A stretch of 64,000 nucleotides of DNA. Origin: Prolixibacteraceae bacterium (GTDB lineage: Bacteria > Bacteroidota > Bacteroidia > Bacteroidales > Prolixibacteraceae). How positions within the stretch are numbered: position 1 is the first letter of the stretch; each line of letters starts with the position of its first letter. Positions 43,460 through 47,062 of the stretch are shown here, piece by piece. A model generated the notes under the pieces. That model had not been told where the DNA came from. It made no database searches and worked only from the letters and a program-made list of their open reading frames with translations. The position numbers and the translations under genes were made by a program. The DNA lies in assembly GCA_030602265.1 (NCBI GenBank), contig JAUWAB010000003.1, forward strand, positions 1-64,000, read 5' to 3'.

Positions 43460-44419
43460 CTATTCAGGTAAAAGCCACGATTCGGTCTCTTTTCCCCGGA
43501 TATAGGTTTCAATGTGCCGTCCTACCTTAGCTTCATACAAATCACTTACTGTAAGTATAATGCCGGTCTCAAGCACATCCCCGAAACTGTCGTTGACTAC
43601 CGTACCGAAAGTCTTCATAGACGGGGAGAGGTTCATGTAAGCATTAAAGAGCGGAGGGATATTTTCTCCAAATTGTCTGACGCTATGTGACAGAATCTTG
43701 TAGTCTTCCTTGTAATCACCGCCGTTGAACAACTCATCCATTTTTTCCATATCAATTCCGAAATCAACCGGTTTTTTGGGATATACCAGATTCTCGCGGT
43801 CGCGGAAATACTTCAGGAAAAAGTATTGTATCAGATTACGGGCCTCATTATGAAAATGGGAATACATGGTAACCTTGCCGAAGAAATACTTGATTTCGGG
43901 ATGGTCGACCGTAAGCGCACCCAGGCCATCCCAAAGGTTGTCAAGCGCAAACAGTGCTTTGGCCCCGGTTTTGCTCGACTGGTAGTCGGGCTGTACAAAG
44001 GAACGCCCAAGCTCAAGTGTATGAGGGATATATTCCCTGCAAAATTTTTCGGAAAAGTGGAACAAATGCGCCGTCGCCAGCATAATTTCACCATTCTCGT
44101 CGCGACTGGCTTCACTGCAAAGCATATATCTGTATCCGCCCAGGATTTCTTCAGCGTCGGGATCCCAAACAATAAGCTGACGGTAAGGATTGTCAGAAAT
44201 ATCAAGTTCATCAATATCAATGGCCTTACCGGTGCCACCCCCGGCATCCCTGAAGGATAACTCCCTGAGACGACCGATCTCCTGCATAATCGCGGGTGAA
44301 TCCTTATGGGTGATTATGTAGATCTCATTGCCTCCCTTGTTGGTCTTACGCATAAACTTATCCGGCTTCAACTCCGCCTTAATTACCTCCCTGGGAACCG
44401 GTGCAAGCAATTCTTCCAT
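43460..44419 (-). CDS. GNAT/OlsB-like N-acyltransferase (GlsB-like candidate)
   Basis: YIITHKDSPAIMQEIGRLRELSFRDAGGGTGKAIDIDELD; EILGGYRYMLC; LELGRSFVQPDYQ. Confidence 0.75.
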   Translation of the reverse strand: MEELLAPVPREVIKAELKPDKFMRKTNKGGNEIYIITHKDSPAIMQEIGRLRELSFRDAGGGTGKAIDIDELDISDNPYRQLIVWDPDAEEILGGYRYMLCSEASRDENGEIMLATAHLFHFSEKFCREYIPHTLELGRSFVQPDYQSSKTGAKALFALDNLWDGLGALTVDHPEIKYFFGKVTMYSHFHNEARNLIQYFFLKYFRDRENLVYPKKPVDFGIDMEKMDELFNGGDYKEDYKILSHSVRQFGENIPPLFNAYMNLSPSMKTFGTVVNDSFGDVLETGIILTVSDLYEAKVGRHIETYIRGKETESWLLPE

Positions 44420-44497
44420 TTTTATTCCAGTAAAATAAATGAATGCAAAATTAATTATTATATGACCTTATTGAAAATTGTACAGTAATTATTTTAA

Positions 44498-45337
44498 TTA
44501 CATGGTTTCGGGCAACCTGTAAACCTGGTCCTTCACAATAGCAGCCCATTGCTGCGGACTCTTTGACCTGTCGAAGGTCTGCCAGGGTATAGGCTTGCCA
44601 AAATAAAGACTGACCCTTTTCTTACGGTGGCGATAAGTTTCATCCGGCAACAAAAACATCTCCAGGTTCCAACCTACCCTGAGCATGGTCCGGATTCTGG
44701 CCAACCAGTAAAAACGGCCAGAATTCCGGCCAGAAATAAATACCGGCACTACGTCCCTTTTGTATTGTACCGCCTTAACAATAAAATGCTTCTGCCACTC
44801 CAGGTCCATCACCTTCCCCCTGATCAGCCGGGAGGCGTAACCCGATGGAAATATCAGAATCTGTTCTCCCGACTCATAGGTTTGTGCCAAAAGCTTTGCA
44901 GCATCCCGCGAATTGCCGCCATGCTTGTTCACCGGAACAAAAACCGGCCGCAGGTTGGGAATGGTCATCAAAACATCGTTCACTAAAAATTTAAAAAAAC
45001 CGAAACGGTTGTATACACTCTTCATCAGAAGAAGGGAATCAAAACCGCCTAAAGGATGGTTGCTGGCAAAAATGTAACTCTTTCCAGCAGGAATGGCGTC
45101 AAGCCCGTAAACCGTTTCAGTCACTTCAAAATCCTTAATGGCTGCCTGAACAAAATCAATACCCGACAAATGTCCATATTTAAGCATGAAGCCATTCATG
45201 AAATCAAGTCGCATAATCCTGTGAATCAACCTGTAGACAAAACCCGGGATCAAACGCGCCAGTGATGGATTCTTTTCTCTCATTACCCGGCGTATGTCAA
45301 CAGGTTCAAAATCCCCCTGCCCTTCTTTTTCTTCCAT
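44498..45337 (-). CDS. OlsA/PlsC-like O-acyltransferase (GlsA-like candidate)
   Basis: YIFASNHPLGGFDSLLLM (HxxxxD variant); FVPVNKHGGN; LIFPSGYASRL. Confidence 0.8.
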   Translation of the reverse strand: MEEKEGQGDFEPVDIRRVMREKNPSLARLIPGFVYRLIHRIMRLDFMNGFMLKYGHLSGIDFVQAAIKDFEVTETVYGLDAIPAGKSYIFASNHPLGGFDSLLLMKSVYNRFGFFKFLVNDVLMTIPNLRPVFVPVNKHGGNSRDAAKLLAQTYESGEQILIFPSGYASRLIRGKVMDLEWQKHFIVKAVQYKRDVVPVFISGRNSGRFYWLARIRTMLRVGWNLEMFLLPDETYRHRKKRVSLYFGKPIPWQTFDRSKSPQQWAAIVKDQVYRLPETM

Positions 45338-45477
45338 AAGCGCTCTGCTTTTCCTTTAGTTTCGGAAAACAAAAATAACATCGAAATCAAATATTCAAAT
45401 TTTAACGCAAAAAAAACAGAAGAATAGTTTTTAATGAGATCAATGCCAGATTGAATTTCAAGTTATCAACCGAAAAC

Positions 45478-45486
45478 TTATCCACA
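45478..45486 (+). promoter_or_regulatory. DnaA-box-like TTATCCACA
   Basis: Exact match to the E. coli consensus TTATNCACA in the AT-rich mraZ upstream region. Confidence 0.35.
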
Positions 45487-45554
45487 ACATTTATAAACAC
45501 AAAACACTTATATACAGCTATATAAATAAATATCAAATAGGCTTTATCCATCTT

Positions 45555-45587
45555 TTTCAACAATATTTCAACAATATTTCAACAAAC
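45555..45587. repeat. 11-bp tandem repeat TTTCAACAATA x3 (last unit TTTCAACAAAC)
   Basis: 45555-45565, 45566-45576, 45577-45587. Confidence 0.9.
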
Positions 45588-45594
45588 CCGAAGA

Positions 45595-45644
45595 TGAACA
45601 CTGGTGGAATAAATTGGAACAATGTGTAATAGTTTGGAATAAAA
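45595..45644 (+). promoter_or_regulatory. Candidate MraZ operator: five 10-bp units
   Basis: TGAACACTGG TGGAATAAAT TGGAACAATG TGTAATAGTT TGGAATAAAA, contiguous, 36 bp before the mraZ ATG. Confidence 0.65.
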
Positions 45645-45680
45645 GTTATAATTTTATCTCTTGAAATTGAGCACCAGCCG

Positions 45681-46148
45681 ATGATACGATTCTCAGCCAG
45701 ATATAATGCACTGATTGATGACAAGGGAAGGGTCGTCCTTCCTTCGTCATTCAAGAAAGCCATGGGCGATCTGGCCGAGGAACCCCTGGTCATTGAGAAG
45801 GATATTTTTAAGGAATGTCTCAACATCTTTCCGGAACGTTACTGGAACCAACGCCTCGAATCCATTGAAAGGCAACTGAACCAGTTCGATGAGGAGGACG
45901 ATGACCTGCTGGCCGATTTGTATGAGAATTACACCACGGTAACCATGGCTCCTAACGGCAGGATCAACATTCCTTCCGATTTCATGGAACATGCAGGTAT
46001 CAACAGGGATGTGGTGTTTATTGGCAAAGGGAAGTCGATCAGACTCTGGGATGAAAAGAAATACCAGGGAAGCAAGGCCAACCGGCGCCCGCTGCGCGAT
46101 ATGTTCAGGGAAAGATTGGGGAATAACCCGGAAAACAGTGAAGGATGA
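45681..46148 (+). CDS. mraZ: Division/cell wall cluster regulator MraZ
   Basis: YNALIDDKGRVVLPSSFKKAM; MAPNGRINIPSDFMEHAGINRDVVFIGKGKSIRLWDEKKY. Confidence 0.96.
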   Translation: MIRFSARYNALIDDKGRVVLPSSFKKAMGDLAEEPLVIEKDIFKECLNIFPERYWNQRLESIERQLNQFDEEDDDLLADLYENYTTVTMAPNGRINIPSDFMEHAGINRDVVFIGKGKSIRLWDEKKYQGSKANRRPLRDMFRERLGNNPENSEG

Positions 46149-47062
46149 ACACATACCATATACCAGTGATGCCAGGTCTGAGTATCGAAGCAATGAAAAT
46201 CAGACCGGACGGCAATTACGTAGACGCTACTTTCGGAGGCGGCGGTCACGCCCGTGCCATTGTCAGCCAGCTGACCACCGGCAGATTGTTTGCTTTTGAC
46301 CAGGATGCCGATGCGGAAAGGAATGTGTTCAATGATGAAAGGCTGGTATTTATCCGATCCAACTTCCGCTATCTGAAAAATTTCCTCCGTTACAACCAGG
46401 TGGAGTCGGTTGACGGGATATTAGCCGACCTGGGGGTTTCCTCACACGATTTTGATGAAGCTGAACGCGGGTTCTCATTCCGATTTGAAGCCCCGCTGGA
46501 TATGCGCATGAACCGGGAAGCAACCCTTTCTGCGAACACCATATTAAACCAATATACCCGGGAACAGCTGACATCAGTCTTCCGGAACTATGGAGAAATC
46601 CGAAATGCTGGCAAACTGGCCGATACCATTATTTCTTCCCGGGAATCGGCTCCCATCGCTACCACCGGCCACTTTCTGGAGACCATAAAAAACCTGATCC
46701 CCAGGGCCATAGAAAAAAAATACCTGGCACAGGTATTTCAGGCCCTTCGGATGGAGGTGAACGATGAAACCGGGGCACTGAGGGATTTCCTCGTTTCTGC
46801 CCTCGAAATTTTACGGCCGGGGGGCAGACTGGTCATCCTGACCTATCACAGCATTGAGGACCGGATCGTAAAGAATTTTATGAAATCCGGAAATTTTGAG
46901 GGTAAAGTCGAACAGGATTTCTACGGAAATTTCATAACTCCCTTTGAGCTCATCAGCCGCAAGGCCATAGTGCCCGATGAGGAGGAAATCACAAATAACC
47001 CGCGTTCCAGAAGCGCAAAACTGAGAATCGCCGAAAAAAAGGAGGTGAACCATGGCAAATAA
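46145..47062 (+). CDS. rsmH: 16S rRNA (cytosine1402-N4)-methyltransferase RsmH
   Basis: YHIPVMPGLSIEAMKIRPDGNYVDATFGGGGHARAI; GILADLGVSSHDFDEAERGFSFRFEAPLDMRMN; TYHSIEDRIVKNFMK. Confidence 0.97.
   Translation: MNTYHIPVMPGLSIEAMKIRPDGNYVDATFGGGGHARAIVSQLTTGRLFAFDQDADAERNVFNDERLVFIRSNFRYLKNFLRYNQVESVDGILADLGVSSHDFDEAERGFSFRFEAPLDMRMNREATLSANTILNQYTREQLTSVFRNYGEIRNAGKLADTIISSRESAPIATTGHFLETIKNLIPRAIEKKYLAQVFQALRMEVNDETGALRDFLVSALEILRPGGRLVILTYHSIEDRIVKNFMKSGNFEGKVEQDFYGNFITPFELISRKAIVPDEEEITNNPRSRSAKLRIAEKKEVNHGK

Follow-up and report, generated by a model that had tools for sequence, protein, structure and literature searches.

Among the Mollicutes, the MraZ site is (AAAGTGKN3)3 (PMC5282649). 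The chromosome of M. genitalium has a single MraZ site, located at mraZ, and expression of the downstream genes goes up when MraZ is lost (PMC8475190). In E. coli K-12, GTGGGAAATT-GTGGGGCAAA-GTGGGAATAA lie in the 50 bp before mraZ with the same 10-bp layout as the array described below. For Bacteroidota MraZ proteins, a literature search turned up neither binding nor expression data. No paper on MraZ operators or DnaA boxes at a Bacteroidota dcw (division and cell wall) promoter was recognised either, which is weak evidence as few subscription papers were covered.

The window analysed here is a 64-kb stretch of DNA from a Prolixibacteraceae genome (Bacteroidota), whose nearest named relatives belong to the Prolixibacteraceae and to other Bacteroidales. 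Within it, mraZ (45681..46148, forward strand) encodes a 155-aa protein that matches NCBIfam MraZ models down to E 1e-28 as well as PDB MraZ chains. The protein carries the DxxGR motif as DDKGR and has PNGR as its second motif. The second gene of the cluster is rsmH (mraW; 46145..47062, forward strand), a 16S rRNA methyltransferase gene (TIGR00006, E 3.5e-92). It is followed by a small ftsL-like ORF, a division transpeptidase, a murE-like gene, and a mraY-like gene; the ftsL-like, murE-like, and mraY-like assignments are our reading of translations and gene order.

A predicted MraZ operator upstream of mraZ

The original prediction described five contiguous decamers, TGAACACTGG-TGGAATAAAT-TGGAACAATG-TGTAATAGTT-TGGAATAAAA, at 45595–45644. 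They are present exactly as written and end 36 bp 5' of the mraZ ATG at 45681. Both strands of the 64-kb window were scanned for six-base TGGAAT cores at 10-bp spacing, and these decamers were the best such array, with a score of 22/24 for the four-unit stretch from 45605 and 17/24 for the next unrelated place. When the full assembly of 168 contigs was searched for four TGKAAY units, allowing ≤3 mismatches, the sole match was the mraZ array, twice in neighbouring registers. The backward control of the same pattern gave 0 matches across the 168 contigs.

The mraZ upstream regions that were compared came from the family (34, own genome included), other families of the order (53), the class outside the order (13), and the phylum outside the class (23). 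Significance was assigned to a four-unit GTG-type array at p ≤ 0.02 against 100 dinucleotide shuffles of each sequence, for which the minimum possible p is 0.01. A 10-bp array was significant in 33/34 family and 47/53 order sequences, counts that are partly circular because the scoring scheme was written after the family and some order sequences had been seen. Among sequences unseen when the scheme was written, it was significant in 10 of the 13 from the class and 12 of the 23 from elsewhere in the phylum. Ten was the best period among 7–13 in 33 family, 49 order, 12 class, and 15 other phylum sequences. Conservation of the decamer phase in relatives had been set as a test of the original prediction, and the 10-bp phase is kept throughout Bacteroidales and beyond. 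In the phylum outside the class, the four-unit test was not significant for about half of the genomes, several of which have no more than two or three units. Some nearly complete phylum genomes (G016, G035, G065, G087, and G119) yielded no MraZ match.

The number of units was predicted to be five, and this did not hold. In 33 family members, TG is present in 94%–100% at registers 1–4, in only 15% at the register of the predicted first unit (45595), and in 9% one register downstream. These frequencies indicate that the conserved operator has four units, TGGAATAAAT TGGAACAATG TGTAATAGTT TGGAATAAAA (45605..45644, forward strand), starting at 45605, 45615, 45625, and 45635. The remaining decamer, TGAACACTGG (45595..45604, forward strand), is a degenerate extra whose register is not kept in relatives. 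One relative (L004) has five good TG units, so the number of units varies. Of the TGGAA core that had been proposed, TG is invariant, and the remainder is better described by the family core (A/T)GTG(G/T)AA; the unit in the genus of the window is (A/T/G)TG(G/T)AA(T/C).

Departures from the common unit were seen in several lineages. One subclade (L027, L028, L030) has GTGACTGAAA in the two middle operator positions and GTGGA units on the flanks. The middle step of the operator upstream of mraZ is 11 bp, not 10, in L018 and L022, and L020 seems alike. Unit sequences drift between genera, as with the GTGACT units of the subclade and the 11-bp central step of L018 and L022, so some arrays may bind less well.

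The array lies just 5' of mraZ, the first gene of the dcw cluster. It consists of direct repeats with a GTG/TGG core and a 10-bp period in three or more units, and its position and phase are kept in relatives. The AAAGTGG-type unit, which appears as AAAGTGGAATAAAGTGGAAT in relatives and as AAAGTGGTAAAAAGTGGTAA in other families, agrees with the Mollicutes MraZ site. The Mollicutes boxes and this array share a 10-bp direct repeat, a GTG core, an A-rich spacer, and a location only upstream of mraZ, and the uniqueness of the array in its genome at ≤3 mismatches resembles M. genitalium, where the sole site is at mraZ. The Mollicutes boxes have three units, whereas four are conserved here and DnaA-like 9-mers adjoin them. 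The E. coli operator likewise has GTGGG units 10 bp apart directly 5' of mraZ, but with three clear units less than 50 bp from the ATG and without an abutting TTATCAACA-type 9-mer. With mraZ downstream, a phase kept across Bacteroidales, and a unit that matches both the Mollicutes site and the E. coli K-12 layout, we identify the array, with about 90% confidence, as the dcw cluster's MraZ operator. MraZ binding and repression are extrapolated here from E. coli and the Mollicutes.

Two other origins of the decamers were weighed. Another protein with 10-bp periodic contacts could bind the array in place of MraZ, as the Mollicutes regulator HsdC binds GTG repeats like those of MraZ with a spacing that differs by 1 nt (PMC5282649). 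This is improbable: almost all of the family and order genomes tested that have mraZ carry the array 5' of it, and the MraZ sites known from two unrelated phyla match it. A chance pattern in AT-rich intergenic DNA, without any regulator, might account for short units of which the first is degenerate, but it is very hard to reconcile with the uniqueness of the array in the genome, or with a phase that families, order, and class all keep at a single position with respect to the gene and the promoter.

The operator also has a fairly constant distance to a putative promoter. Bacteroidota promoters have a −7 element of the type TAnnTTT[A/G], and a putative element of this type, TAATTTTA, occurs at 45649..45656 on the forward strand, 14 bp after the last operator TG. 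This distance is 12–15 bp in most relatives. A sigma-70 promoter scan found 1 promoter where 2.0 were expected, with a model that is ill-suited to Bacteroidota promoters. The four decamers cover the DNA just 5' of the −7 element, the −33 region included, so bound MraZ should block the promoter. MraZ forms rings, and one subunit could contact each GTG-centred decamer, all on one helix face. MraZ bound to the four decamers would then exclude RNA polymerase, lowering transcription of mraZ itself and of the genes that follow (autorepression). With M. genitalium as precedent, repression by covering the promoter is the action we would expect of MraZ here.

DnaA-box-like elements beside the operator

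An array of DnaA-box type that the original prediction had missed is present upstream of the MraZ operator. It comprises three 9-mers, TTTTCAACA, ATTTCAACA, and ATTTCAACA, at 11-bp spacing (45554..45584, forward strand). The 11-bp triple pattern with ≤2 mismatches occurs at a single place in the genome of the window, and such an array is also found upstream of mraZ in relatives. Further DnaA-box-like 9-mers, TTATCAACC (45463), TTATCCACA (45478, canonical), and TTATAAACA (45491), occupy 45463..45499 on the forward strand, about 55–90 bp 5' of the 11-bp array, and a TTATYAACC/TTATYMACC pair like them recurs in the genus.

The 9-mer class, TTWTNAACA, is strongly enriched at this position. Within the 70 bp 5' of the first MraZ unit, family members carry 48 forward-strand copies where shuffles predict 1.0; for other Bacteroidales families the corresponding numbers, observed and expected, are 34 and 1.1. 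Three 9-mers in a row, head-to-tail at 11 bp with ≤2 mismatches each, were found in 12/34 family members and in 0 of the reversed controls of the family sequences. In 21 of 50 order sequences, TTWTNAACA stands exactly 11 bp before the first GTG, as TTATCAACAAAGTGG; the typical copy is TTATCAACA, directly adjoining the first MraZ box. Of 60 order genomes, 15 contain the joined 15-mer TTATYAACAAWGTGG, each a single time, and in 14 it lies at independently found mraZ coordinates.

The canonical DnaA box is TTATNCACA, and the array copies have A, not C, at position 6. The same 9-mer class is found at the putative origin of the lineage. In a closed relative (G034), the intergenic region at the GC-skew minimum holds TTTTCAACA twice, TTTTTAACA, TTATTAACA, TTATCCACA, and TTATTCACA; another TTATTAACA lies a short way into the gene next to the putative origin. 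Across 10 putative origins (G034 and nine family members), 27 copies of TTWTNAACA were counted upstream of the origin-neighbour gene against 4.1 expected; the skew minimum ties only the G034 region directly to an origin, and the other nine rest on the common gene neighbourhood. In G031, the origin-neighbour gene is a few kb from the skew minimum and is without such boxes upstream. The A-form copies at these putative origins suggest that the lineage uses the A form at its origin. No clean covariation was detected between the DnaA recognition residues (DHAT vs DHTT/DHST) and position 6 of the box, the exceptions being a DHAT genome with a C6 box (G105) and a DHST genome with an A6 box (G072). 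DnaA boxes upstream of dnaA amount to only a few sites, too few to serve as an independent check.

The putative oriC of G034 (G034:C1:2396371–2396808; L094:371–808) lies at the GC-skew minimum, ~2 Mb from dnaA. It adjoins a gene for a 1095-aa protein, and this neighbourhood recurs in relatives.

We consider it fairly probable, from the form and placement of the 9-mers, that DnaA binds the array and adjusts dcw transcription to the replication cycle. A less probable but serious alternative is that the TTWTNAACA elements bind a protein other than DnaA, or offer RNA polymerase an AT-rich stretch that works like an UP element. The A in place of the canonical C at position 6 in nearly all copies would suit this alternative. 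In the order, the element also precedes the first MraZ box by about one helical turn, as expected of an activator or an UP element. It accounts less well for a strict 9-mer in fixed orientation (only 5 copies on the reverse strand upstream of the array in the family, against the 48 forward) with 11-bp head-to-tail spacing, for the presence of these 9-mers at the putative oriC in a closed relative, and for two class members in which the −11 position is taken by a canonical TTATCCACA or TTTTCCACA.

That the mraZ intergenic region is itself oriC, with both arrays as origin parts, would fit its perfect DnaA box TTATCCACA, several DnaA-like 9-mers, and 11-bp array, but was rejected as highly implausible because the GC-skew minimum is elsewhere in two closed relatives (3.15 Mb vs mraZ at 2.80 Mb in G031; about 2.395–2.396 Mb vs mraZ at 3.43 Mb in G034). 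The dnaA gene also lies elsewhere in both genomes.

A candidate link between replication and division

The DnaA-type sites lie 5' of the operator, spaced as is usual for upstream activators that contact RNA polymerase, and DnaA bound there might act in this way. Alternatively, a DnaA filament might help MraZ or compete with it; either sign of effect is compatible with the sequence. The dcw promoter would in either case read the MraZ level and the state of DnaA side by side. We lean slightly toward an ancient composite site at the dcw promoter of Bacteroidales, made of DnaA boxes and a four-unit MraZ operator, at which DnaA would directly set division-gene transcription against MraZ repression. 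The same slight preference extends, jointly, to its proposed layout, with one box abutting the operator in many families and the 11-bp array in Prolixibacteraceae.

DnaA sites upstream of division genes are known at the ftsL promoter region of B. subtilis, where DnaA was located by ChIP (PMC8203912), and at ftsZ of C. crescentus. Unlike in those cases, putative DnaA-type boxes are fixed here beside a MraZ operator across an order, and they form 11-bp arrays in Prolixibacteraceae; the DnaA sites of the present locus are candidates from sequence. According to a review, a major effect of DnaA transcription on the timing of cytokinesis has been demonstrated in no species (PMC8203912). A 2024 study found the proteins of the B. 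subtilis ftsL operon unchanged on replication arrest (PMC11019786), a result that calls for caution on coupling between DnaA and division.

The MraZ operator, if correctly assigned, carries a known switch into the Bacteroidota, where its grammar is clearly one of four units. Of greater weight is the DnaA-type element next to it: a site of this type, fixed beside the division-cluster operator across an order, points to a link of replication with division that can be tested.

The intergenic region upstream of mraZ is shared with a divergent gene, glsA (44498..45337, reverse strand), which encodes a lyso-glycine lipid O-acyltransferase (NF053697, over cut-off). Together, glsB and glsA (43460–45337), for glycine lipid synthesis, adjoin the dcw cluster divergently.
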